This document shows, one piece after another, positions 3,800-63,714 of a DNA stretch of 64,000 nucleotides. The DNA comes from Planctomycetota bacterium. GTDB taxonomy: Bacteria > Planctomycetota > UBA1135 > JACQFD01. Numbering within the stretch: position 1 is the first letter of the stretch; every line of letters begins with the position of its first letter. The notes under the pieces are model-generated. The model ran no database searches. It was not told the DNA's origin and saw only the letters and a program-made list of their open reading frames with translations. The translations under genes were made by a program, and so were the position numbers. The stretch covers positions 142,077 through 206,076 of the forward strand of contig JACQFD010000026.1 of the NCBI GenBank assembly GCA_016200225.1, read 5' to 3'.

Positions 3800-4222
3800 G
3801 GTTTCATGGCGCGCCGGCGTCCCAATAGAAGCAGGACGGATTCCCAAGTTTAACAGTTTCGTGGGCGTCGCGGTCCCGCACGAATCGTCCGCGCTAAAAC
3901 GCTCCAAAGACAGTTTCGGTCCGATACGTCGGTTGAGGACTGGAATCGTCATGACAGCAACTCCAATCCGCCGCCGACGCCGAACGCACAAAATAAAGAA
4001 TTTCGATGTTCGTCCGGCGCTGCGGTTCCCATTTCTTGGTTGCTTCACCAAGGCAGCCGGTCGCGGCACCGAAATGTGGATGTGGAAATCGCACAGAAGC
4101 AGGCTTGAATAGAGACAGGGAGGAGCGGGAACCGAAACCGCTCGCGGCGCGAGGATGCAGAATCCTCGCGCCGTTTTTTTTATATTTACATTCCCAGAAT
4201 TAAGATTCCGGCCACGAATCTA
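3800..4222. other. Intergenic stretch between sigma factor and E1 beta genes
   Basis: About 420 bases without a convincing protein gene. The minus-strand frame upstream of the sigma factor is open to 4069 but encodes a basic, low-complexity tail. The stretch should hold the sigma-factor promoter on the minus strand, though I see no clear -35/-10 pair. Its plus strand ends in a perfect intrinsic terminator at 4145-4181 with no plus-strand gene before it, so a small RNA could be encoded here. Confidence 0.5.
4145..4181 (+). terminator. Perfect 12-bp intrinsic terminator, plus-strand orientation
   Basis: CGGCGCGAGGAT pairs without mismatch with ATCCTCGCGCCG over a GCAGA loop and is followed directly by eight T residues. 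The orientation ends plus-strand transcripts, yet no plus-strand gene lies upstream before the convergent dpp operon at 2136. On the minus strand it lacks a following T run. Confidence 0.85.
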
Positions 4223-5281
4223 CTATTCCGGCTCGGTCGCGAGTTCGCGCATTTCGCGCAACACGTCGGGCAATTGCGGAACCGACGCGTCTTCGAGCGT
4301 CGGCGCCATGCCGACGCCGGGAACGTGTTTGCCCGCGAGGACGCGCGGCCGCACTCGAAGTTCATAAAAGAACTCGTCGACCGTGCGGCGCAGGAGATGT
4401 TCGCCAAAATTTGTAATTTCCGTATCTTCGTTTACAAATAATACGCGGCCCGTTTTTTTAATCGATTGCGCGATGGCGTCCCAGTCGTAGGGCATCAGCG
4501 TCCGCAGATCGAGGACATCGTAATGAATGCCTTCCTTGACGAGCGCGTCGGCCGCGTCCAAACATAAAGGAAGCGTCCGACCGTAGCTTACAACAGTTGC
4601 ATCGGCGCCGGTGCGGCACAGTTTGGCCTTGCCGATCGGAACTGTAAAATCCGTCAATCCCTCGGGCCACTTCGGTTTCCAGTTTTTTCGGTCGCCGAGC
4701 GGCGCGTCGATCATGTCGCGCAGCGCGCGTTCGTCCTCGGGCTCGCCCGGAATGCGCTCCGCGCATTTGTTGCGAAGCATCGCTTTCGGCTCAAGATACA
4801 AAACGGGGTTCGAATCCTTCAGCGCGGCGATCATCAAACCGTAGGCGTCGACCGCGTTGGAAGGATATACAATTTTCCATCCCGGAATGTGCGTCGCGAT
4901 GGCGTCGAACGAATGTGAATGATAAATCGAACCGTGCACGCCGCTTCCCGTCGTCGTCTTGATCACCATCGGAAAGTTAAATTCGCCCCCCGAACTCCAC
5001 GTGCTGTTCGTCGCTAATTTTAACAAATCGATCGTGTTAAATATATAATCGCAGAATTGTATTTCCGCGACCGGCCGCTGGCCCGCGATCGCGAGTCCGA
5101 TTGCCGCGCCGACGATGCCGCGCTCGTCGAGCGGCGAATTCCACGCGGTTTGCAATCCCTGCGTGCAGGTAAAGACTCCGCCGAGCGGCGGACCCACGTC
5201 TTCGCCGAAAATATCCGTAACACCGAGGTGTTGCTCGCCGTACGCGAGCGCCATGCGAATGGCCTGCGCCATGGTTGCCAT
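4223..5281 (-). CDS. 2-oxoacid (pyruvate/branched-chain) dehydrogenase E1 component, beta subunit
   Basis: A 352-residue transketolase-type beta subunit. Hallmarks are IFGEDVGPPLGGVFTCT near the N-terminus, the conserved PLDERGIVGAAIGLAIAG segment, the FCDYIFNTIDLL stretch and a C-terminal domain with VLFVNEDTEITNFGEHL. With the alpha subunit it forms the thiamine-diphosphate-dependent E1 that decarboxylates a 2-oxoacid and passes the acyl group to a lipoyl E2. The alpha gene lies 2 bases upstream on the same strand, so the two are one operon. The sequence fits the branched-chain/acetoin-type heterotetrameric E1, but substrate (pyruvate or branched-chain 2-oxoacid) cannot be fixed. No E2 or E3 gene is in the window. 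Confidence 0.92.
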   Translation of the reverse strand: MATMAQAIRMALAYGEQHLGVTDIFGEDVGPPLGGVFTCTQGLQTAWNSPLDERGIVGAAIGLAIAGQRPVAEIQFCDYIFNTIDLLKLATNSTWSSGGEFNFPMVIKTTTGSGVHGSIYHSHSFDAIATHIPGWKIVYPSNAVDAYGLMIAALKDSNPVLYLEPKAMLRNKCAERIPGEPEDERALRDMIDAPLGDRKNWKPKWPEGLTDFTVPIGKAKLCRTGADATVVSYGRTLPLCLDAADALVKEGIHYDVLDLRTLMPYDWDAIAQSIKKTGRVLFVNEDTEITNFGEHLLRRTVDEFFYELRVRPRVLAGKHVPGVGMAPTLEDASVPQLPDVLREMRELATEPE

Positions 5282-5283
5282 GA

Positions 5284-6438
5284 TCAGCGCCCCCCCTTAT
5301 TGTTTGAATCGCCCGGCTGCGACTTCGAACCCGGATCATAATATTGATCCTTCGGTTCCGCGAAAATATAACGATAAATATCCTCGCCCGGAGGAAACGG
5401 TTCGGATTTAACAATTTCGTAGGCCTGCGCCATTTCTTCGCGGCGCTTTTCCCACACGCGATCGAGTTCTTTGCGCGTGGCGAGTTCCTGATGCAGCAAT
5501 TTTTCTTCAAATCGAAGAATACAATCTTCTTCTTCGACGCGGTTCGCGCCGCTCGACGACGAGTGTCCGTTCAAGCGCGACACGCTCGCTTCAATAAAAA
5601 ACGGTTTGCGTTCGGATCGTACATATTCCATTCCTTCGGCGATCGCTTTCCAACTGGAGTAAACGTCGTTGCCGTCGATCGACCGCGACGGAATGCCGAA
5701 CGCCTTCGCCCGCTCAACGATCGGCGTGCCGTGCTGCGTGCACGAACCCGTCGAAATTGCATATTTATTATTCGCCGTAACCATCAATATGGGCAATTCG
5801 TTGCCCGGCCGCGTCGACCACACGAGACACGTCGCAAAGTCGCCTTCGTGCGTGCCGCCGTCGCCGCCGTTCACAATTGTAATACCCGTTCCGCCGTGTC
5901 TGCGTTGCGCGATGCCCGTGCCGATCGCGATCGAAAATTGTGTTTCAATCGTCGGCGCCATCGGCGCGACGTTCCATTTGCGAATCGCGAAATGATTGAC
6001 AAAATTTCGTCCCCGCGAAAACGGATCCGTAGCTTTCGCGCCCATTTGCCGCAATATATCAATTGGCTGGGCTCCCATCGCGAGAACGATCGGCGAACTC
6101 CGATAATGTAAATGTAAATAATCGTTGTCGAGACCCTGTCCTTTCCGCACCTGCAAACCGAGCGGCGCGCTCAACGCCTCTTCACCCGGCGCCCCGATCC
6201 AAAACCATCCGTCGCCCGAACGAACCATGCGAATGGCTTGTTCCTCAACCGTTCGCGTCGTGACCATCAGATCGTGGATGCGCAACTGGAGCTGTGGCGT
6301 CCAGTCGGGCATGCCGTTTTGAGTCGTGCGGTTCTTTCGTTCATCCACGGGCGCGGCTCCTGAATTTGAATTGCCGGAGGAATTGGTTGGAACCGTTCCG
6401 CGAGGAGAAGCTCCTGGCTGTTTTGAAGTCGTACTCAA
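5284..6438 (-). CDS. 2-oxoacid dehydrogenase E1 component, alpha subunit
   Basis: A thiamine-diphosphate-binding alpha subunit. The cofactor motif is plain: GGDGGTHEGDF, followed by ANNKYAISTG. The GAPGEEALSAPLG and DNDYLHLHYRS segments contact the cofactor and substrate. The start is uncertain: the track uses a TTG at 6438, giving 384 residues with a Ser/Asn/Gly-rich, probably disordered head, while an ATG at 6312 (MPDWTPQL) would start at the folded domain. The C-terminal tail after the last helices is also polar. It is first in the E1 pair, with about 250 bases upstream that may hold the promoter. The cofactor residues look intact. Confidence 0.9.
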   Translation of the reverse strand: MSTTSKQPGASPRGTVPTNSSGNSNSGAAPVDERKNRTTQNGMPDWTPQLQLRIHDLMVTTRTVEEQAIRMVRSGDGWFWIGAPGEEALSAPLGLQVRKGQGLDNDYLHLHYRSSPIVLAMGAQPIDILRQMGAKATDPFSRGRNFVNHFAIRKWNVAPMAPTIETQFSIAIGTGIAQRRHGGTGITIVNGGDGGTHEGDFATCLVWSTRPGNELPILMVTANNKYAISTGSCTQHGTPIVERAKAFGIPSRSIDGNDVYSSWKAIAEGMEYVRSERKPFFIEASVSRLNGHSSSSGANRVEEEDCILRFEEKLLHQELATRKELDRVWEKRREEMAQAYEIVKSEPFPPGEDIYRYIFAEPKDQYYDPGSKSQPGDSNNKGGR

Positions 6439-6685: not shown

Positions 6686-7081
6686 TCACCGTTGGGGAGG
6701 TTTCGAACGCGCGACCACGTCAATTTCAACCAAAGCGCCGCGCGGAAGTTTCGCGGCTTGAATTGTGGATCGCGCGGGCGGGTGATTCGAAAATACTTTT
6801 CCGTAAACTTCATTCATCGAGGAAAAATCATTTAGATCCGCGAGATAAACGGTTGCCTTAACTACATCTTCAAATGTGCAACCGGCCTCTGCGAGAACGC
6901 CGCGCAAATTCAACAATACTCGTTCAGTTTGAGCGCGCGTGTCGCCCCCGACGAGTTGCCCGGTTTCGGGATCGAGCGCGATCTGACCGGAACAATATAT
7001 CCATCCGTCGATCATGACCGCCTGTGAGTAAGGTCCGATGGCTTTCGGAGCCGCGGAAGTGGAAATGATATTTTTTTGCAT
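6686..7081 (-). CDS. ridA: RidA family enamine/imine deaminase
   Basis: From the ATG at 7081 the protein is 131 residues, the usual RidA length. It shows the family pattern: SAAPKAIGPYSQAV, YCSGQIALDPETGQLV, the AEAGCTFEDVVKATVYL segment, the PARSTIQAAKLPRGALVEID motif with the substrate-binding Arg. RidA hydrolyses reactive 2-aminoacrylate-type enamines made by PLP enzymes. An upstream in-frame TTG at 7174 overlaps the coaD stop and would add a 31-residue hydrophobic head resembling a signal sequence (IPAIIAFLPFATIGCIAQ). Neither start has a clear ribosome site. Being directly behind coaD, the gene is probably co-transcribed with it. Confidence 0.9.
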   Translation of the reverse strand: MQKNIISTSAAPKAIGPYSQAVMIDGWIYCSGQIALDPETGQLVGGDTRAQTERVLLNLRGVLAEAGCTFEDVVKATVYLADLNDFSSMNEVYGKVFSNHPPARSTIQAAKLPRGALVEIDVVARSKPPQR

Positions 7082-7170
7082 CGTTGAACTAGAGAAATAA
7101 CGGCTTTCTTGCGCAATGCAACCGATTGTTGCAAACGGAAGGAATGCGATGATCGCGGGGATTGGTAGTT

Positions 7171-7662
7171 TCAAGACCGGAGACCGTACTTCAAACGCAT
7201 GCGCGACTCGATCTCGGGGGGGAGGAATCGTGACACGTCGCCTCCGCCCTGCAGCACTTCCTTGATAAGGCGGCTCGATGTGAATGAGTATTGTTCGCTC
7301 GGCATCACAAATACGGTTTCCACGCCCGGGGCCAACGATCGGTTCGTGAGGGCCATTTGATATTCGAATTCAAAATCCGAGACCGTTCGCAATCCGCGGA
7401 GAATCACGTTGAATCCGTTCTTCAGACAATATTCGACGACGAGACCGCGAAAATTAGTTACATGGACTCTGGCATCGCCGCGGAATTGATATTTTAACAT
7501 TTCGACCCGCTCTTCCGAAGTGAAAACGGGAGACTTCGTCTGGTTTTCGACGACCGCTACAGTAATTTCACCGAAAAGGGCGGAGCCGCGGCGGATGAGG
7601 TCGAGGTGACCGTATGTAAGGGGGTCAAAACTGCCCGGATAGAGTGCGCGCGAAACCGACAT
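7171..7662 (-). CDS. coaD: Phosphopantetheine adenylyltransferase
   Basis: A 163-residue CoaD that transfers AMP from ATP to 4'-phosphopantetheine, the penultimate step of coenzyme A synthesis, in the cytoplasm. The nucleotidyltransferase start YPGSFDPLTYGHLDLI contains the HxGH-equivalent TYGH motif. ILRGLRTVSDFEFEYQMA and the EQYSFTSSRLIKEV segment (matching the ISSTxVR-type motif) are typical and in the right order. Length matches the family. It lies upstream of ridA on the same strand and is divergent from comEC, which starts 58 bases away, so the short gap must hold both promoters. Confidence 0.96.
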   Translation of the reverse strand: MSVSRALYPGSFDPLTYGHLDLIRRGSALFGEITVAVVENQTKSPVFTSEERVEMLKYQFRGDARVHVTNFRGLVVEYCLKNGFNVILRGLRTVSDFEFEYQMALTNRSLAPGVETVFVMPSEQYSFTSSRLIKEVLQGGGDVSRFLPPEIESRMRLKYGLRS

Positions 7663-7720
7663 GGTTCGATTTTAATATATTTGAAGGATTTTTCGCGCCC
7701 ACTTTTCCGATTTTCGCGCG

Positions 7721-10285
7721 TTGTCTTATATGCGGGCCATTACACGTGAACGCCCCCCACTGCGTGCGGCGGTTTGGATCGCCGTCGGCGCGATGGCGGG
7801 TGTGTTGTATGCAAACCGTCGTTGCCAGCAGGCAGACGGAGCGTGGATCGCGGCCGCGGGGATCGCCGTCTGCGGCCTTTGCGCGATTGTTCATAATCGC
7901 CGAATACTTACAATCGTGGCGGGCCCAATCCTGTCCGCCGTCGCCGCGGCGCTCGGAGTTGTTTGTTATCAGGCGGAATGGAACGCGCGCCGTCCCGCCG
8001 GTTTTTGTGCGACTTGGCTACATGCATTCGAAACTAGTGACTTCGAAAACAGTGCCTTCGAAAACAATGCCTTCGAAAACAGTGATTTCGGAACCTCGTT
8101 CGGGACAACCGACGCGCGCGAACGGCGCGATGGACTTGTGGCATTGGAGGGAGTCGTGTCGAGTCCCGTGTGGACGGACGTGCCGGCGGACGACGGATCG
8201 TTATCATCACAATTTTCGATACAAATCGACGGCGTCGACGTTGGAACCGGCGTCGACGTTGGAACCGGCGTCGACGTTGGAACCGGCCCTGAAACAGATG
8301 GCACCGAATCGAGTCGCCGCCGCGTTGCGGCAGCGCGCGGAGAATGCACGGTTCGAGCCGCTGGACGGCCTCCCGCCATTGCGCCGGGCGACCGGGTCCG
8401 CATCGTCGCCAAAGTTAAGAAACCGGGAAGTCCGACCGCCCGGGATCCTCCATTGGAACGGCCGCCGTGGTTTCTAACGAAAAACGGCGCAATCTACAAA
8501 ACCGCCGATGCGCCGTATTGCGGCATCGCGTACCTCGCGGATCGCGCGCGCGAATCGATACTACATATCCTCCAAACGCGTTTTTCGGGCGCCGAACTCG
8601 GCGTCGCGACGGCGCTCAGCATCGGCACGTATGCCTATCTGCCGCAGGACGTTCTTGAAGCCCATTGCGACACGGGCGCGATTCCGCATCTCGCGATTTC
8701 GGGATCGCACGTCGTTATTGTTTGTATTGTCATCGGATTTCTCGCACGCGCGCTGCCGAGGCGCGTCGCGACTCCGTTTTTGTGCATTTCGCTTTTTGTA
8801 TATGCTCCGATTTCGGGCGGCGCGTCGCCGACGATTCGGGCCGTATGCGCGGCGCTGCTTACGAATGCGGGACGCTACACGAGGCGGCGGCCGGACTCGC
8901 TACAATTGCTCGCCTGCGGGGCATTTCTCGAAGTATTAACCAATCCGTTCGAAGTCGCCGGCGCGTCGTTCCAATTGTCCTACGGCGCGATCCTCGGATT
9001 TATCCTATTTTATCGTGAAATTAATAAAAGGCTCTCGGGAATGCTGCTCCCGGTCGAATTGAATTTTGGCGAATTGAATATTGGCGAATTTAATATTTAC
9101 GTACGCGCCGCGCGCGCGCTGATCGCGTCCTTTGCGCTCGGACTCGTGGCAATGCTCTCGACGGCGGGACTCGTCGTCTATCATTTTCAACGCCTGCCTT
9201 GGATCGCGCCGATTCTTGGCATTCCCCTTTCGTTTATGATTCCGCCGATGATGCTGTTCGCGTGGGCAGCCGCGATTCCGGGCCCCGCGGGCGCTTGTTT
9301 CGCAAATTTGTTTCATTGGATCTTTGCGTGGGAAAATGCCGCCGTCGCATTCGCGCGCAGCGCGGCTCCTCCCACGTTTCTTTACAATGCCTCGATGACC
9401 GGCATCGGATGCGCGAGTCTATTATTCCTTTGCAGCGGCCGGGCGAGGGCGGCGATCGGAGGGGCGTTTCTAACGGCTGTCTGTTTTATCTTCACGTCGC
9501 GAAGCGCGCGCGACGGAAGTTTAACGATCATCGTGCAGTCGGTGGGGCATGGCCTCGCGGTCTCATGCATTGCGCCCGGCGGCGACGCCGTACAGATCGA
9601 CGCGGGTTCGAACGATTTGCGGCGGCCGGAGATTCCGATACTTCAATCGCTCGCGGAACGTGGAATCGATCATTTCGCCGTCGCCTCCGTTTCTCACGAC
9701 GACGCCGATCATGCGAATGCCTATCCGCGATTACTACAGTTAATTTCGACGAATGCATGGATTGCAAATCCGGAGAATCCATGGGCCGCGCTGTTTTTGC
9801 GCGCCACGCGACGGCCGCGCTCGACGTGCGGCCCGCTCGTTCTGGGAGACGCGCGATTCGAATGGATCTCCGTTCGGGCAAGCCCGACCGCCCGCGACAA
9901 TGATTATGAAGTGATCACGATCATTGAATTCGCCGGACGGCGAATTCTCCTGCCGGGCGACCTCGAGAAACCCGGCGTCGAAAAGTTATGGACGATGCTC
10001 GAACATACACAATTCGACGTCGCCATCCTTCCGCATCACGGCCTCGACAACGGTCAGATCGAACCGTTTCTCACGGGCGCGGATCCCCGAATCGCGATCG
10101 CATCGTGCGGAGTTCGATATTCGACGCGCGCCGCGGAACGCTCGCTCGAGCGGCGCGGAAATGTATTATTTACCACGCGCCGCCACGGGACACTAACGAT
10201 CGTCGTGGAACGCGACGGCGCCGTGCGACTGTACGCGGCGCGCCGGCAACGCAGTTACTATGATTTCGCCGGTTTTAACAATTGA
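7721..10285 (+). CDS. comEC: ComEC/Rec2 DNA internalisation channel
   Basis: An 854-residue membrane protein with the ComEC order. First come N-terminal helices, then a soluble OB-like DUF4131 region (about 110-270). The competence membrane core follows, with LGVATALSIGTYAYLPQDVLEAHCDTGAIPHLAISGSHV. A C-terminal metallo-beta-lactamase-like domain (from about 600) includes VSHDDADHANAYPRL, LLPGDLEKPG and LPHHGLDNG. ComEC forms the inner-membrane pore for single-stranded DNA in natural transformation. The lactamase metal site looks largely kept. Three short in-frame tandem repeats interrupt the protein (separate entries), two in the OB-like region and one in the membrane core. The end overlaps the acnA end by 28 bases on the opposite strand. 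Confidence 0.93.
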   Translation: MSYMRAITRERPPLRAAVWIAVGAMAGVLYANRRCQQADGAWIAAAGIAVCGLCAIVHNRRILTIVAGPILSAVAAALGVVCYQAEWNARRPAGFCATWLHAFETSDFENSAFENNAFENSDFGTSFGTTDARERRDGLVALEGVVSSPVWTDVPADDGSLSSQFSIQIDGVDVGTGVDVGTGVDVGTGPETDGTESSRRRVAAARGECTVRAAGRPPAIAPGDRVRIVAKVKKPGSPTARDPPLERPPWFLTKNGAIYKTADAPYCGIAYLADRARESILHILQTRFSGAELGVATALSIGTYAYLPQDVLEAHCDTGAIPHLAISGSHVVIVCIVIGFLARALPRRVATPFLCISLFVYAPISGGASPTIRAVCAALLTNAGRYTRRRPDSLQLLACGAFLEVLTNPFEVAGASFQLSYGAILGFILFYREINKRLSGMLLPVELNFGELNIGEFNIYVRAARALIASFALGLVAMLSTAGLVVYHFQRLPWIAPILGIPLSFMIPPMMLFAWAAAIPGPAGACFANLFHWIFAWENAAVAFARSAAPPTFLYNASMTGIGCASLLFLCSGRARAAIGGAFLTAVCFIFTSRSARDGSLTIIVQSVGHGLAVSCIAPGGDAVQIDAGSNDLRRPEIPILQSLAERGIDHFAVASVSHDDADHANAYPRLLQLISTNAWIANPENPWAALFLRATRRPRSTCGPLVLGDARFEWISVRASPTARDNDYEVITIIEFAGRRILLPGDLEKPGVEKLWTMLEHTQFDVAILPHHGLDNGQIEPFLTGADPRIAIASCGVRYSTRAAERSLERRGNVLFTTRRHGTLTIVVERDGAVRLYAARRQRSYYDFAGFNN
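8027..8086 (+). repeat. 15-bp tandem repeat x4 inside comEC
   Basis: Four consecutive 15-base units close to TTCGAAAACAGTGCC, encoding a repeating F-E-N/T-S/N-D/A pattern. The array keeps the reading frame. It lies in the predicted soluble region after the first helices. The units differ at a few bases. Confidence 0.9.
8231..8284 (+). repeat. Perfect 18-bp tandem repeat x3 inside comEC
   Basis: GGCGTCGACGTTGGAACC occurs three times in a row without a single difference, encoding a V-D-V-G-T-G hexapeptide repeat. Perfect identity suggests recent expansion by slippage. The unit length is a multiple of three, so copy-number change would not break the gene. Confidence 0.95.
9053..9097 (+). repeat. 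15-bp tandem repeat x3 inside comEC membrane core
   Basis: Three units near GGCGAATTGAATATT, encoding ELN-F/I-G steps. They sit in a loop between membrane helices of the competence domain. The first unit is the most diverged. Confidence 0.85.
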
Positions 10286-55543: not shown

Positions 55544-58500
55544 CTATCGGCCCGGCGTCGCCGCGATGGCGTTTACAATTTCGGCCGCGTCGACGCGGAA
55601 AATCTTTAATCGTAAATTTCGAATCATAACTTTGGCCCCCGCCTCCAGTTGAAACACAAGGCCCCCCTTTCGCACTTTCAGAGGCATGGATCCGCGCACG
55701 TCCTGGGCTTCGCCCGCGACTCCATTCCTGAGCGCCGACCACAGGTGGATGACGTCGTTGCCCACGACGGAATGCGTCACGCGATACGTCATCCCGTCCT
55801 GAACGGGCGCGTGGAGCACGCCCACCGCCTCGGGTGCAACTGTAGTGAACGCGGTTTGGTAATAAATGGCCCAGATCGGATCATAACGATCGAGAATCCA
55901 AAATCCCTTCCTTTCAATTGTAACATCGAAAGTCAATTCATAATCGCGCCACCATTCCATCGGAACCGAAAATCCGCCGGGCCCGCCGAGTCCGAACGTC
56001 ATGCTGCCGCCGCCGTCCGCCGCCGCTTCGATCGTTAGCGAGTCGCCGCTGAATTCGCTCGAAAGCCCCGATGAACTCTGCGCCCATCCGCGTCGCTCGA
56101 CGGTCGACGTCAATTCGCGCGATGCGATCGAATCTTTAAATGCCGCGTCGTCGAATAATTGTTGCGACAAACCGTCGGCCGCCATGGTCGTTTTGTGAAA
56201 ATCGACGCTGAACGCGCGCGGATCGAGCACGTGGTATCGCGTCGCGGATTCTTCGGCAAAATCAAACTTAGTGAGTGCCGCGATGCGCTTTTCACGCGTG
56301 TCGGCGCTCCCCGCGGCGTCGCTCGCGATCTCGTCGAGTTTTTGCCACGTTTCGCGCATGGCCGCGAGTTGCCCCGAGCGCAATTGCGGCAATTTCGCGA
56401 GCGTCGCGCGGACTTCGTCGGCGAGCGGCGAATTTGTAGTCTCCGCATTTCCATACAATTCCAGGAGCGCCTGCTCCGCGCCCGCGCGGACCCCCGCTTC
56501 GCCGCTGAATAGTAATCTTAACAATAAGCGCGCGCCGTCCTCGTCGCCGAGGCGCGCCCGGCCTCTTCCTAATAAAATGCGCATTTCCTCGGGCGAACCG
56601 AGGTTCCCCGGCAATTTGTTCGCCGCCGCCGTATCGTCGAAACGGCGATTTAATCGAATGATCCATTTCGCGCCGCGCGGATCGCCGGCGACCTCGAGCA
56701 CGCGCGCAGCCCAGAGCGCGGTCGTCAACGCCGGGTCGCGCGTGGCTTCGATCGCCGCCGGCACCGCATCGGGATCGTTGAATTGTTCGAGCACGCGCAG
56801 CATGGCGACCCGTTTATCCAAAAAGCCCGCGGGCCACTTCAAACCGTCGATAACATAAGGCGCGGCCGGGCGCCCGATTTCTATCAATCGCGAAATACAC
56901 TTTTCCGTTTCGGCGGGGTCCGACGGATTGACGTCATTGCCGCCGGCGTCGCGCACGAGTTTTAATATTTCGGCCTTCAACGCGCCGTGCACCGCGAGCG
57001 AACGCGGCTTCCTGAGAACGCCCGCGCTTTTTACAATAAATTCCTGACGTAACGCGGCAAGCGCCTCCAAACGATGTTCAAAATCCAAATTCGGATGATA
57101 ACCGCCGTGGATTCCGGTGACGTCGAGGAATGCTTCAAATAGCGACGCGCGCACAAGGTCGTCCGGATAATCCAAATGATCGAGCAACCAGCGCGCGCCG
57201 TCGATTTCGCCGACGGCCGCGAGCGCCCATGCGACGTCGCGCCCGGTTTCCGCGACCGCCGCGACGCGCGCGAGCGTTTTTCTTAGTAATGGCGTGGAAT
57301 CTTTATCATTCAATACGCCGACGGCGCGCGCCGCCGCGGCGGCGACGTCAAAATCCATATTACTTAAATTCGCGCGGATCGCGGGGATCAATTCCTTGAG
57401 CCCGAGCCGCCCGGCGGCGTCGGAACCGTAGCACCGGTCGAGCGGCGCGCCGGTTTTGATTAATTTCTCGAGCCGCGCCTGCGCGCCCGCTTGAATGATT
57501 GTATCTTTATCGAACCGCGCCAGAATTTCGCACGCGTGGACGCGAATATATAATTCTCTGTTTTCGAGCGCGCCGACGACGGCCGCGGCGGCCGGAGCGC
57601 CGATGCGTATCAAAGCCTGCTCGCCCTGCGCCCACGTCTTGCTGTCCCACGAACCAAGCGTGCCCACGAGCGCCGGCACCGCTTTTTCTCCGAGTTTCAC
57701 GAGCGCGTCGCCCGCTTTTTTATTAGCTTCGGGAACGGGGAATTGAAATAACGCGATCAATTTTTCGATGTCACCCGGCTGCGTGCCGCCCGGAACGTTA
57801 ATATCAACTTTGGCAATTTTCGGCCGCGCGAAATCCGCGAGATTGCCCGGACTCGCGGCCTCGACGGGAAGCGCCTCCGGCAGCACGGCGTGAATCTCCG
57901 GCGCGCTTTCGATCGTTTTCGTCGACGGCTCGATCGGGCCGAATGCAAACGATCGGCTCTCGAGCGTCCGCGACAGGTCGGGGTGCCCGTCCTCCATCGG
58001 ATAATATAATTTATAGAATAATTGCGTTTCCACCGTTCCCGCCGAAATCGGAACCGGCACCCGGTGTTCGCGCGTTTCGCCCGACGGTATTTGTGTATTT
58101 ACAGGCAGCGTGAGGCCGTACGGCCGTTTATAAGGATCGCGGTGCACGTCGCGGGAGCGCGCGATCTCGCGTCCGGCTGTGTCGCGGATGATCACCAAGG
58201 ACTCGACCGACCGTTGCTTCAATTCCGTCGGAAAGTTATGTCCCGTGCCCGCATTCGTAAGATGCACCACGACTTCGTTTCCCTGCAATTCGACTTTATA
58301 TTCATACGCCATCTTTAATTGTGTTTCCGAACGGCTCGCGAAAAACGTGTGCCGCCTCGTTTTTTTCGCCGGCATGCCGACGGCGACCGGCCGCTCGACT
58401 TCGGGCATGTGGCAATCGATACAAACATTCCCCGCCTGCTTTCCAAATTTAGCATTTTCCCATTGATACGGCGTCCCGTGGTTGCGATGGCACGACGCGC

Positions 58501-59005
58501 ACGCCTCCACCTGACCGACGCGCGGATCGAATGCATTCTTACATTCCGCGAGGCCGCCGTTGAAATTTGTATAATCATGTTCGGCTTTCGCGTGGCAACT
58601 GAAACAATCGTTGCCTTCCTCCAAATGATGCAATCTTTTGATAGGATTACGCCCGATGCCGGTTTCGAAAATCGGCCGCGGCGTATGGCAATCAATACAT
58701 CCGGGAATGGAAAAGCCCGCCGTCGCCATGCGCGCTTCGATGTCGCTAAACGCGCGGCCGTGCGTGTTCATCCGGTGCTCGGCCACCGCCTCCGGGTGGC
58801 ACTTTGCACAAAAATCGGCGCGCATCACCTGATCGAGATGGGCCGTTTTCCCGTCCGCCGCGTCGGCCGTCGCGTTGAGCATGCGATTCGCGATCTCGGC
58901 GCGCGGCGCCGCGCAACTAAATACTACAATTCCAAAAAGCGAAACGAAGAACAGGGCGGCCGCGAGGGCGCGCGACGAAACCGCCGGGGAATTAAATGAT
59001 CGCAT
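55544..59005 (-). CDS. Exported five-heme cytochrome c protein with HEAT repeats
   Basis: A 1153-residue protein from the ATG at 59005 (MRSFNSPAVSS); the long upstream extension in the track runs through the AIM24 gene on the other strand. After a signal sequence with a Cys near 31, five CxxCH heme sites lie at about 66, 103, 134, 169 and 195 (CAKCH, CIDCH, CFSCH, CASCH, CIDCH). A beta domain (about 220-400) follows. HEAT-like repeats come next (EKAVPALVGTLGSWDSKTWAQGE, ELIPAIRANLSNMDFD), and a C-terminal jelly-roll-like domain ends it. It probably transfers electrons in the periplasm and binds a partner through the repeats. A fusion of this kind is not one I can name. Confidence 0.85.
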   Translation of the reverse strand: MRSFNSPAVSSRALAAALFFVSLFGIVVFSCAAPRAEIANRMLNATADAADGKTAHLDQVMRADFCAKCHPEAVAEHRMNTHGRAFSDIEARMATAGFSIPGCIDCHTPRPIFETGIGRNPIKRLHHLEEGNDCFSCHAKAEHDYTNFNGGLAECKNAFDPRVGQVEACASCHRNHGTPYQWENAKFGKQAGNVCIDCHMPEVERPVAVGMPAKKTRRHTFFASRSETQLKMAYEYKVELQGNEVVVHLTNAGTGHNFPTELKQRSVESLVIIRDTAGREIARSRDVHRDPYKRPYGLTLPVNTQIPSGETREHRVPVPISAGTVETQLFYKLYYPMEDGHPDLSRTLESRSFAFGPIEPSTKTIESAPEIHAVLPEALPVEAASPGNLADFARPKIAKVDINVPGGTQPGDIEKLIALFQFPVPEANKKAGDALVKLGEKAVPALVGTLGSWDSKTWAQGEQALIRIGAPAAAAVVGALENRELYIRVHACEILARFDKDTIIQAGAQARLEKLIKTGAPLDRCYGSDAAGRLGLKELIPAIRANLSNMDFDVAAAAARAVGVLNDKDSTPLLRKTLARVAAVAETGRDVAWALAAVGEIDGARWLLDHLDYPDDLVRASLFEAFLDVTGIHGGYHPNLDFEHRLEALAALRQEFIVKSAGVLRKPRSLAVHGALKAEILKLVRDAGGNDVNPSDPAETEKCISRLIEIGRPAAPYVIDGLKWPAGFLDKRVAMLRVLEQFNDPDAVPAAIEATRDPALTTALWAARVLEVAGDPRGAKWIIRLNRRFDDTAAANKLPGNLGSPEEMRILLGRGRARLGDEDGARLLLRLLFSGEAGVRAGAEQALLELYGNAETTNSPLADEVRATLAKLPQLRSGQLAAMRETWQKLDEIASDAAGSADTREKRIAALTKFDFAEESATRYHVLDPRAFSVDFHKTTMAADGLSQQLFDDAAFKDSIASRELTSTVERRGWAQSSSGLSSEFSGDSLTIEAAADGGGSMTFGLGGPGGFSVPMEWWRDYELTFDVTIERKGFWILDRYDPIWAIYYQTAFTTVAPEAVGVLHAPVQDGMTYRVTHSVVGNDVIHLWSALRNGVAGEAQDVRGSMPLKVRKGGLVFQLEAGAKVMIRNLRLKIFRVDAAEIVNAIAATPGR

Positions 59006-59095
59006 GCGGGCACTATGCCGGCTCGAACACCGCGTTACAAAGGCGCGCGCGAATGAAACGCCGGGTATGATGCACCTCTCTTCACCGAGCACACC

Positions 59096-59893
59096 ATGTC
59101 TCAAATGCACGAAGTCGATTTCACGATCCACGGCGACGACATGCAATTTGTCGAGGTCGAACTCGATCCCGGCGAGGCCGCGGTCGCCGAGCCCGGCGCA
59201 ATGATGTACATGGACGCCGGCATCGAGATGGACACGGTTTTCGGCGACGGTTCGCAACAAAACAGCGGCATTTTCGGAGCACTCGTTGGCGCGGGAAAGC
59301 GATTGCTCACCGGCGAGTCGATGTTCATGACCGTTTATATGAATCAAGGCGCCGGGAAGCAGCACGTCGCGTTCGCGGCGCCGTTTCCCGGCCGAATATT
59401 ACCGATCCAACTCGCTACAATTGGCGGAACGTTAATAACACAAAAAACGTCCTTTCTCTGCGCGGCCAAGGGCGTGAGCATCGGTTTATTCTTTCAAAAA
59501 CGCATCGGCGCCGGACTCTTCGGCGGCGAGGGTTTCATTATGCAGCGACTCGAAGGCGACGGCCTGGCGTTCGTGCACGCGGGCGGCGCCCTCACGCAGC
59601 GCGACTTGCAGGACGGCGAAGTTCTGCGCGTCGACACCGGTTGTATTGTTGCATTCACGCCGTCCGTCGATTTTGATATCAAATACGTCGGCCGCATTAA
59701 AACGGCGCTGTTCGGCGGCGAAGGCTTGTTTTTCGCGACGCTGCGCGGTCCCGGCCGCATTTGGTTGCAAAGTCTCCCACTTTCCCGCCTCGCCGACCGT
59801 ATCCTTTCCGCAGCGAGCGGTCTGTCCGGCCGCAAGCGCGAAGAGGGCTCGATCCTCGGCCCGATCGGCGACCTCATCGGCGGCGATAATTAA
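59096..59893 (+). CDS. TIGR00266/AIM24 family protein
   Basis: A 265-residue protein with the AIM24 pattern: MHEVDFTIHGDDMQFVEVEL, DPGEAAVAEPGAMMYMDAGIEMD, and GGEGLFFATLRGPGRIWLQSLPLSRL near the end. The fold is a double-stranded beta-helix-like barrel. Homologues in bacteria are widespread and uncharacterised; yeast AIM24 acts in mitochondrial inner-membrane organisation. A middle segment (FLCAAKGVSIGLFFQKRIGAGLFGGEGFIMQRLEG) is also typical. No signal sequence is visible, so it is probably cytoplasmic. It diverges from the cytochrome gene and precedes two genes on the same strand. Confidence 0.88.
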   Translation: MSQMHEVDFTIHGDDMQFVEVELDPGEAAVAEPGAMMYMDAGIEMDTVFGDGSQQNSGIFGALVGAGKRLLTGESMFMTVYMNQGAGKQHVAFAAPFPGRILPIQLATIGGTLITQKTSFLCAAKGVSIGLFFQKRIGAGLFGGEGFIMQRLEGDGLAFVHAGGALTQRDLQDGEVLRVDTGCIVAFTPSVDFDIKYVGRIKTALFGGEGLFFATLRGPGRIWLQSLPLSRLADRILSAASGLSGRKREEGSILGPIGDLIGGDN

Positions 59894-59926
59894 ATTTAAC
59901 TAATTCAAACCGATATTTACAATAGC

Positions 59927-61690
59927 GTGGCACTACCGACGAGCGGCGAACCCGCAAAGAAGAAGGCCCCGGCCGCCGGGGCCGGCGCTCCGTCGTATTT
60001 GGCTATATTACTGATCCTCGCGGCCGTGATCGCGGGCGGATTCTTGCGATGGCCCGATTCGCACCTTGTCGACGCGGAAAAAATCGCCGTCACGGAGGAG
60101 GCTCGCGAATCGGTGGAGGCGGCGAAATCATTATTAAACGGCGGCGGACTCACGATCGCGCGCGGCGGCGAACAAAAACCGTCGAAACTGTCGGCGGGAG
60201 AGTCCACGGCGGTCGCGCTTTCGTATGTAACACTTGGAAAATCCCCGTCTTCGCCGCTCTATTTTCAGGCGATTCTATCGACGCTCGCGATTTTATTCGT
60301 TGCAATGGCGGGCTGGTGCGCCGCGGGAGGGATCGGCGGAGCCGCGGCCGCCATTCTGATGGCGACGTGGCCCGATCAAATCGAGGCGACGCGATCTGTA
60401 ACTTTGGTGCCGACGGCGAGTTTCACGGTCGCGGCCGCGGCCTGCGGCGTCGCGTTCGCGCTCCGCGCGGGAAAAGGCGCGTTCACCGGCATGCTCGTGG
60501 CGGGAATTTTTGCCGGACTCTCCATCGCGGTGCATCCGCTATTCATCGTCGTCGCCGCGGCGATTTTTGTAGCTTCCATCGTTCAATATTCGTTTCGCGC
60601 GCTCTTCGGCGCGGCCGTCGGACTTGCCCTCGGACTCGCCCCTCTTTTGTTACAAAGGACGATTGCTTATAAAAACCCGCTTGTCTCCGCCGAACGATTT
60701 TCCGCCGTTCCGGGAATGTCCGGATTCGATTTGTTCCAAGGAACGACGGGCGGGCGCCTCGCGGACTGGGTCGGCGTCGACGCGACCGCGCTATCCTTCA
60801 ATTTGGACAAGGGCTTCTTCGAACATTTATATCAGAATCCGACGCACGTCGCGCTGCTGGCGCTGGCGGCGCTTTCGTTATTGACCGTTTTTTCGTCGGC
60901 CGCGCGCGGATCGCTCGCGTTGATCACCGCCGTCGCCGGCGGATTGTTATTAATACCGATCATCGCGGGACGCGAATCCGGCATTCCGCTCTCCCGCGCC
61001 ACGGAAGTTTTTTATATATTTATCGCGATCGGAGGCGGGCTCGGCGCCTCGGTGATTCGTAAGATTCCCGTCGTCGGTCTATTCCTGGCTCTCGGCCTTG
61101 CGCTCGCGCCGGCCGCGACGCGATATCGGAGTTTCCTCGACGTCTGCATTCGCGCGCCCGGTCTCCTCGCCCCGAAACCGGCCGAACCTCCGGTGGTTCA
61201 AGGCAACACGGAGGCGGCGGCGATTCCGGCGGAAAAAGTAAAAATTACAGATCCGGAGCCGACCGCGAAAACAAATCAAAAGCCCGAGGTAATTATTACA
61301 AAACCGACCGATCCGCCGGTCGTGAAGCCGCCCGACAAACCGCTCCACCCGGCCACGGCGGGCGAGCTCGCAACGGTAAAAAAACTCGTCGACGGCGAAG
61401 GCGGTTCGTGCAAACCGTCGGCCGCGATCGAAGAGGGTTTCATTTTATTAAATTTAAGATTGGATCGCGACGACCTCGACCCGAAGACCGACGCCGTCCG
61501 TTTATCATTAAAGATTTTGCGCGAACTCCCCGCACTCGACCGCATCCGCGTGCGCATTCAAAAAAAGGAGGGCGCGACCGTTTCGACATCCATGGTGAGC
61601 GCCGCGAAAGCGAAAGCGTTCTTCGAGAAAATGGACGATCCGTTCGAAGCGCGCCGCGCGCGCGACTGGTGGCCGCTCATTCGCGACTGA
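59927..61690 (+). CDS. GT-C-like polytopic membrane protein with a C-terminal domain shared with the next gene
   Basis: A 587-residue protein from a GTG at 59927. Around ten hydrophobic helices fill residues 25 to 400. The first periplasmic loop (RWPDSHLVDAEKIAVTEEARESVEAAKS) and the repeated GIGGAAAAILMATWPDQIEATRS-type helices resemble GT-C sugar transferases, without a firm motif. A Pro/Lys-rich linker (about 420-480) leads to a soluble domain of about 105 residues: LVDGEGGSCKPSAAIEEG, TDAVRLSLKILRELPALDRIRV and DDPFEARRARDWW at the end. The next gene ends in the same domain. The first part may sense or use a lipid-linked sugar; this is inference. Confidence 0.7.
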   Translation: MALPTSGEPAKKKAPAAGAGAPSYLAILLILAAVIAGGFLRWPDSHLVDAEKIAVTEEARESVEAAKSLLNGGGLTIARGGEQKPSKLSAGESTAVALSYVTLGKSPSSPLYFQAILSTLAILFVAMAGWCAAGGIGGAAAAILMATWPDQIEATRSVTLVPTASFTVAAAACGVAFALRAGKGAFTGMLVAGIFAGLSIAVHPLFIVVAAAIFVASIVQYSFRALFGAAVGLALGLAPLLLQRTIAYKNPLVSAERFSAVPGMSGFDLFQGTTGGRLADWVGVDATALSFNLDKGFFEHLYQNPTHVALLALAALSLLTVFSSAARGSLALITAVAGGLLLIPIIAGRESGIPLSRATEVFYIFIAIGGGLGASVIRKIPVVGLFLALGLALAPAATRYRSFLDVCIRAPGLLAPKPAEPPVVQGNTEAAAIPAEKVKITDPEPTAKTNQKPEVIITKPTDPPVVKPPDKPLHPATAGELATVKKLVDGEGGSCKPSAAIEEGFILLNLRLDRDDLDPKTDAVRLSLKILRELPALDRIRVRIQKKEGATVSTSMVSAAKAKAFFEKMDDPFEARRARDWWPLIRD

Positions 61691-61740
61691 GCGCCGAATA
61701 TAACATTTAATTTAAAGTAAACGATCTCTTCGAACCGCCC

Positions 61741-63714
61741 ATGTCCGTTCCGGCATTTTTGCTTATTTCGTTATTGGTACTGTTTACCGGCCAGGGAAAA
61801 ACGCAGGGCAAACCCAAAGAAAAACCGGCGCCGGAGCAAAAACCCGAGAAACCGGAGCTGCCGCTCGAGGGCGAACTGCCGCGCGACGTCCCGCTCCTGA
61901 TCGAATTCTTAAAAAGCGAAAAACCCGCCGTGCGCCGCCGCGCCGCCGAGGGGCTTCGCGCCCTCGGCCCCGATGCTAAAGAAGCGATTCCTGTATTAAT
62001 CATTCGCACGCACGACGACGCGGACGCGCAAGTCCGCAAGCTCTGCGCGGAGGCGCTCGCCGAAATGGGGCCGCTTTCGAAGAATGCCGTGATTCCGCTC
62101 AGCAAGGGATTGTTTGATAAAGATTCCGACGTGCGCGTCGCGTCCGCGGCTGCGCTCGGAAAAATCGGCGTCGCGGCGCTCGGCGCGTTCGATGCATTAT
62201 TAAAAACCGCGAAACAGGACGGCGCCGCCGAACCGCTGCAAAACGCGTGCATCACGGCGGCGGGCGCGATCTTATCGAAACTGAAGGACGACGCTCCGAG
62301 AAAAGTATATTTAACGAAACTCGCGGAATTGTTGGGAGACGCGCGTCCGTCGATACGCAAAACAACTGTTGAAGAGATCGGCGCCCTCGGGCGGGCGGCA
62401 AAGGAAACACTGCCGCGCCTTCGCGATCTCGCCGAAAACGACGCCGACGACGATGTTAAGAAAGCGGCGGCCGACGCCGTCGCCAGAGTGAGCGGCGAAA
62501 CCGAAGAAACCGGCCATCCCCCGACCGAATCCGCGCCGTCGGCGGGCGTGCTGACATTTGCAACATTCGACGCGGTCCTCGAAGCGTTAAAGAATAATAA
62601 AGCGACCGTGCGGCGCGAAGCGGTCGAGCGGATTATTAAGATGAAGTCCGCCGCGGAGCCGGCGATTGCAACTATAAAGAAAATGTTACATGACGACGAG
62701 GATCTTCCCGTGCGCGTCGGCGCGGCGCGCGCACTCGAGGCCATGGGACCGGTCGCCGAACCCGCGGTGAAGGAACTCGGACTATCGTTAACAAACCGCA
62801 CCGAGGACGAGCGCGTGCGCGCCGCCTCCGCGGACGCGCTTGGCGCGATCGGTCCGCGCGCGCTGCCCGCCCAATCGGCGCTCGCGCGCGCGTGGGTCGA
62901 GGACGAGCGCGGCGCCGTGCGGCGCGCCGCCTCGCATTCGTTATTTCAAAAAATCCAGGCGTCGCCAAGAAATATCGTTAATATCGTTCGCGATATTTTT
63001 GTATCATCGAAAGAGGAGGACGTGCGCGCGCGGTGCGCCGACGCCTTTGGACAATTGGGAGTTGTTACAAAAGAAACGCTTGCAATATTGACAAAATGCC
63101 TGAAGGACGAAGAGCCTATCGTGCGGCGCTCCGCCGCGGCGGCGCTCGGCGAGATCGGAACCGAGGCGAAATCGTGCGTCGCCGCGTTGATGGACGCTCG
63201 CAAAGATACGGATCCGAATGTTAAGAAACGCGCCGAGTTCGCGATTCGTAAGATCGATCCGCTCGCGCTCCCGCCCGACCCGCCGCCCGTTACGTCCAAC
63301 CCCGTTACATCCAAACCGGCGGCGCCAGACGCGCCCGCGTCGGAACCGGCCGCGTCCGCCGTCGCGAAGGAACCGAAGACTCTCGAAGAATGGGTATTAT
63401 ATCTAATCGACGGCGAAGCCGGCATGTCTCGCCCGACCGCGAAATTCGAGAACGGCGGCGTTCATTTATTATTAACTCTGGAACATCCGCGATTCGACGA
63501 AGCGATGGCGCACACCGACGCCGTGCGGCTTTCATTAAAATTATTCGAAAGCCTTCCCGATCTCAAAGCGATCAAAGTGTCGATTTTTCATAATAACGGG
63601 CGATTGCTCAGTACAAAAACCGTCACCGCCGAACGCGCCAAGCCCTTTCTCGCCATCGACGATCCATTCGAACGCCGCCGCATGCGCGATTGGTGGGAGA
63701 AGATCGCGCTCTAG
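61741..63714 (+). CDS. Exported HEAT-repeat protein with a shared C-terminal domain
   Basis: A 657-residue protein. A signal sequence (FLLISLLVLFTGQG) is followed by a Pro/Lys/Glu linker and about ten HEAT repeats, such as PAVRRRAAEGLRALGPDAKEA, DSDVRVASAAALGKIGVAALG and EPIVRRSAAAALGEIGTEAKS. Repeats break around 270 and resume. After a Pro/Ala linker the C-terminal domain of about 110 residues reads LIDGEAGMSRPTAKFENGG, TDAVRLSLKLFESLPDLKAIKV and DDPFERRRMRDWW. It matches the end of the preceding gene. The two genes are 50 bases apart on the same strand and probably act together. The HEAT part is a protein-binding scaffold; the domain function is unknown. Confidence 0.8.
   Translation: MSVPAFLLISLLVLFTGQGKTQGKPKEKPAPEQKPEKPELPLEGELPRDVPLLIEFLKSEKPAVRRRAAEGLRALGPDAKEAIPVLIIRTHDDADAQVRKLCAEALAEMGPLSKNAVIPLSKGLFDKDSDVRVASAAALGKIGVAALGAFDALLKTAKQDGAAEPLQNACITAAGAILSKLKDDAPRKVYLTKLAELLGDARPSIRKTTVEEIGALGRAAKETLPRLRDLAENDADDDVKKAAADAVARVSGETEETGHPPTESAPSAGVLTFATFDAVLEALKNNKATVRREAVERIIKMKSAAEPAIATIKKMLHDDEDLPVRVGAARALEAMGPVAEPAVKELGLSLTNRTEDERVRAASADALGAIGPRALPAQSALARAWVEDERGAVRRAASHSLFQKIQASPRNIVNIVRDIFVSSKEEDVRARCADAFGQLGVVTKETLAILTKCLKDEEPIVRRSAAAALGEIGTEAKSCVAALMDARKDTDPNVKKRAEFAIRKIDPLALPPDPPPVTSNPVTSKPAAPDAPASEPAASAVAKEPKTLEEWVLYLIDGEAGMSRPTAKFENGGVHLLLTLEHPRFDEAMAHTDAVRLSLKLFESLPDLKAIKVSIFHNNGRLLSTKTVTAERAKPFLAIDDPFERRRMRDWWEKIAL

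Follow-up and report, generated by a model that had tools for sequence, protein, structure and literature searches.

A conserved C-terminal module on membrane, HEAT and TPR proteins of one Planctomycetota family, and its possible role in envelope docking

In type IX secretion (with its CTD) and PEP-CTERM systems, a common C-terminal region is found on otherwise unrelated exported proteins. At a smaller scale, the pilotin AspS is a periplasmic domain that binds a secretin segment (the S-domain), with an alpha/beta structure of five strands and four helices in the order alpha, three strands, two helices, two strands, alpha, and a conserved disulfide between Cys74 and Cys111 (PMC3542185).

Here we analyzed a 64,000-nucleotide stretch of Planctomycetota DNA (the window) in which two neighboring genes, one for a polytopic membrane protein and one for an exported HEAT-repeat protein, end in the same C-terminal module. 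Like the type IX CTD and PEP-CTERM regions, this module is C-terminal on unrelated, apparently exported proteins, but it is rare per genome, is also carried by a polytopic protein, has no family match, and is predicted to fold as an alpha/beta domain. With AspS it would share a small size, an envelope location, an alpha/beta make-up that includes an antiparallel sheet, and a similar element order (alpha, two strands, alpha, two strands, helices), although the module has one strand fewer (four), lacks a conserved disulfide, and forms the tail of larger proteins whereas AspS is a free lipoprotein.

Two adjoining carriers with a common C-terminus

The membrane protein is encoded by an ORF with a GTG start at 59927-61690 (+; 587 aa) and the HEAT protein by one with an ATG start at 61741-63714 (+; 657 aa), on the same strand and separated by 50 bp; the contig ends where the window ends, so genes 3' of the HEAT protein lie beyond view. 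The original prediction held that both C-termini carry the same motifs in the same order behind proline-rich linkers, whereas the N-terminal parts are unrelated, and each of these points was borne out. All of the listed motifs are present in the given order, and the two C-termini are homologous by BLASTP (48/102 identical, 47%; 85.9 bits, E = 4e-28), with a local alignment score of 209 against a mean of 27 and a maximum of 50 across 2000 shuffles (z ~40). Local alignment of the N-terminal parts, by comparison, was no better than that of shuffled sequence.

The limits of the ~112-residue module can be refined slightly, from residues 480-587 to 476-587 in the membrane protein (61352-61687, +) and from 545-657 to 544-657 in the HEAT protein (63370-63711, +; additionally supported by the structural model described below). 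The module profile recovers the membrane-protein copy at E = 7.9e-46, a value to be read with the fact that the query copy is itself a row of the profile, as also applies to the other profile E-values of module copies. Composition marks out the linkers at residues 414-475 of the membrane protein (61166-61351, +; 24% Pro) and 503-543 of the HEAT protein (63247-63369, +; 27% Pro). Upstream of its linker, the HEAT protein has a repeat region at 61882-63246 (+; PF13646, 2e-42) and, judged from sequence alone, a hydrophobic signal-peptide-like N-terminus without a lipobox cysteine (61741-61800, +). No Rfam family matched anywhere in the window.

The N-terminal part of the membrane carrier (59927-61165, +; called from hydropathy) contains 9 hydrophobic segments by automated scan and 11 by eye, and its ortholog in Planctomycetota bacterium MAG-28, 40% identical over 260 residues by blastp, contains 10. 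With counts of 9-11 segments, the module of this carrier may lie on either side of the membrane. This part of the protein has no direct Pfam match and does not reach the PMT_2 cut-off; in a search of 154 genomes, however, its profile matched a PMT_2 protein encoded by a relative (E = 1.9e-4 within that one genome), and hhalign aligns the two over 79 columns (P 2.5e-4). The likeness to PMT_2 / GT-C glycosyltransferases (PF13231) is confined to one stretch of only ~80 residues, and touches the carrier, not the module. A GT-C-like transferase identity for the N-terminal part is possible on this evidence.

An AIM24-family gene (59096-59893, +; PF01987, 5.5e-74) lies directly upstream of the membrane protein, and an AIM24 gene also precedes the MAG-28 ortholog (locus L022; upstream frame compared by eye), such that the pair is conserved across both genera (window 59096-61690; L022 8357-11200). 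On the opposite strand, the ORF at 55544-59365 (-) encodes a large protein in which multihaem cytochrome c motifs precede HEAT repeats; as listed it overlaps the AIM24 gene, so the GTG given for it probably lies upstream of the true start.

Fold and family of the module

Scanning all 8 copies of the module identified in this study against Pfam-A and NCBIfam yielded nothing above the curated cut-offs, the best matches (E 0.035 in Pfam and 0.0046 in NCBIfam) involving one copy each and unrelated families. No pilotin family appeared among the Pfam matches at E up to 10, and a PDB sequence search returned repeat artefacts—including matches to designed toroids, which we rejected—and chance matches only. 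Literature titles and abstracts contained nothing relevant to a named equivalent in Planctomycetes.

AlphaFold2, given three sequences (the two window copies and one MAG-28 copy), predicts a compact alpha/beta fold with confidence (pLDDT 92.4, pTM 0.85). The predicted elements comprise a helix at 5-13, strands at 20-27 and 30-37, a helix at 44-61 and strands at 67-73 and 79-86, and finally three short helices, within which the DDPFE..RR.RDWW tail falls. When the full-length membrane protein was modeled from its sequence alone, confidence was low (pLDDT 44), too low for comparison with the GT-C fold, and the module region showed the same order of elements. Across the 8 copies only L33, V85, D98, R103, W108 and W109 are invariant, no cysteine is conserved, and the most conserved part is the tail DDPFExRRxR[DE]WW, with the last 15 residues strongly conserved.

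Foldseek searches of the module model against the PDB gave no match at E <=0.001. The pilotins AspS and EpsS were near the top of the list, with TM scores of 0.53/0.55 to AspS (4ftf; probability 0.99, E 0.044) at 15% sequence identity. PD-(D/E)XK-like matches were rejected given their low TM scores and a predicted element order lacking the third core strand. We additionally counted secretin (PF00263) matches, of which there are seven in the genome analyzed here (G000) and six in that of MAG-28 (G001).

The original prediction described a defined, unnamed module, and this description stood: its fold is predicted with confidence, neither Pfam nor NCBIfam has a matching family, and 8 copies occur in several architectures and two genera, beyond the two window proteins. 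It is a family new relative to the libraries searched and is narrowly distributed.

Distribution and carrier architectures

The genome from which the window derives (5.3 Mb, 93.5% complete) contains 3 copies of the module, on the two window proteins and on a second HEAT protein; a DNA pattern for DPF...WW likewise occurs 3 times in this genome, always inside modules. MAG-28, which belongs to a second genus and is the sole other genome of the same family in the search set (contig JAEUHX010000061.1), contains 5 copies, carried by orthologs of the membrane protein and the HEAT protein, by a second HEAT protein, by a TPR protein that may have a beta-rich domain at its N-terminus, and by a putative beta-sandwich protein (called by sequence pattern; no Pfam match). 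The profile search extended the list of carriers to at least 4 architectures in two genera (membrane protein, HEAT, TPR and putative beta-sandwich), in all of which (8/8 copies) the module occupies the extreme C-terminus. Non-membrane carriers have signal-peptide-like starts by inspection, which makes the proposed location at the membrane or envelope plausible.

Beyond the family, we found no credible match in 154 genomes of the order/class nor in two overlapping samples of the phylum (392 and 391 genomes), where the larger genome runs scored the best 11-29 first-look candidates per genome and weak relatives may escape. Plasmids, phages and viral contigs gave no match, and two contig scans returned the HEAT locus of MAG-28 alone. 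Two matches from outside the family were judged to be chance: one in G002 (E 0.0085), whose frame looks antisense, and one in G373 (21 bits), which spans half of the model and lies within a long protein of repeat-like sequence. We also rejected a candidate decayed second module in the HEAT carrier of locus L023 (ORF 3849-6194; residues 561-625, before the intact copy), which scored 5 bits. A tree of the modules contained no supported branch.

The suggestion that the two window proteins are partners of one system was only partly supported. The gene after the MAG-28 membrane carrier, which sits beside AIM24, does not encode a HEAT protein, and the adjacency seen in the window is therefore not conserved; in MAG-28 the module is also present at other loci, on the TPR and putative beta-sandwich proteins. 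In both genera, a homologous protein that matches no Pfam family is encoded near the second HEAT carrier (L021 10009-11604 and L019 4796-6712, within regions L021 7915-11604 and L019 4796-10351), with a protein bearing an HExxH motif (6718-8322) between the two in L019.

A possible docking role in the envelope

We propose, with a probability of about 0.5, that the module is an exported, tethered protein-binding tail that recruits a range of proteins to one shared partner in the envelope. The linker would hold the module away from its carrier, be it a HEAT or TPR scaffold, a putative beta-sandwich or a membrane protein; the module would bind a single partner shared by all carriers, whether a different envelope protein or a further copy of the module; and this binding would gather different carriers in one place, with the conserved tail contributing either to the fold or to the binding surface. 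Such a docking or adaptor role is favored by the combination of signal-peptide-like soluble carriers, flexible linkers, N-termini built of interaction repeats (HEAT and TPR being known protein-interaction repeats, in which the carriers are rich) and a polytopic carrier. The homology and shuffle results, the confidently modeled compact fold and the C-terminal placement of all 8 copies on at least 4 architectures also speak for it. The weak resemblance of the modeled fold to AspS may count in favor of docking as a lead about fold, not membership; its limits—an E of 0.04, which is not significant, and the absence of the AspS disulfide from the module—would count against it, as would the spread of 9-11 hydrophobic segments in the membrane carrier, with which its module may lie on either side of the membrane.

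Several of the same features could be read as a C-terminal sorting or anchoring signal recognized by an export or attachment machine of the type IX secretion or PEP-CTERM kind, given that the module is always at the extreme C-terminus, ends in strongly conserved residues and sits on unrelated, apparently exported carriers. A general signal would be expected on many exported proteins per genome, and 3 and 5 copies are few; moreover, secretion is ruled out for the carrier with 9-11 hydrophobic segments, and the module is predicted to be a folded domain rather than a transmembrane tail. We consider a sorting signal unlikely, and prefer docking because of the low copy number and the polytopic carrier. 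A ligand-binding or enzymatic domain, acting for example on a glycan or cell-wall component that the membrane protein also handles, would accord with the conserved polar residues (the DGE loop, R53, S55, K57, D98 and R103) and with the weak likeness of that carrier to sugar-transferring GT-C proteins. We find this improbable as well, preferring docking because the module has no known catalytic family and no significant fold match. Few positions are invariant, moreover, and the TPR carrier lacks the DGE loop.

The module might also be a passive by-product of duplication, in which a HEAT-plus-module gene was duplicated and its 3' end copied onto neighbors without a shared role. Indeed, the two HEAT carriers of the window genome (one in the window, one on contig C7) are full-length paralogs (33% over 667 aa), and the two window carriers adjoin. 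Set against this, on carriers of one kind the modules have been retained in both genera at ~47-59% identity with the tail kept, suggesting selection, and we regard the by-product explanation as quite improbable. A more specific form of the docking proposal, which we put forward as speculative and rather doubtful, is a hitherto unrecognized docking domain of the envelope, restricted to a single Planctomycetota family. It would assemble HEAT and TPR proteins, the putative beta-sandwich protein and glycosyltransferase-like membrane proteins around a common partner, as a small, lineage-specific equivalent of the cohesin/dockerin principle.

Collectively, these findings describe a new, clearly delimited domain family whose fold is predicted with confidence and for which the libraries searched contain no named relative; the bacterial group that carries it is represented here by metagenome-assembled sequence. 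Lineage-specific domains without an assigned function are often newly described, and the significance of this one is therefore moderate until its partner is known. If the docking role is true, its carriers—here two HEAT proteins and a membrane protein—could be placed in one complex.
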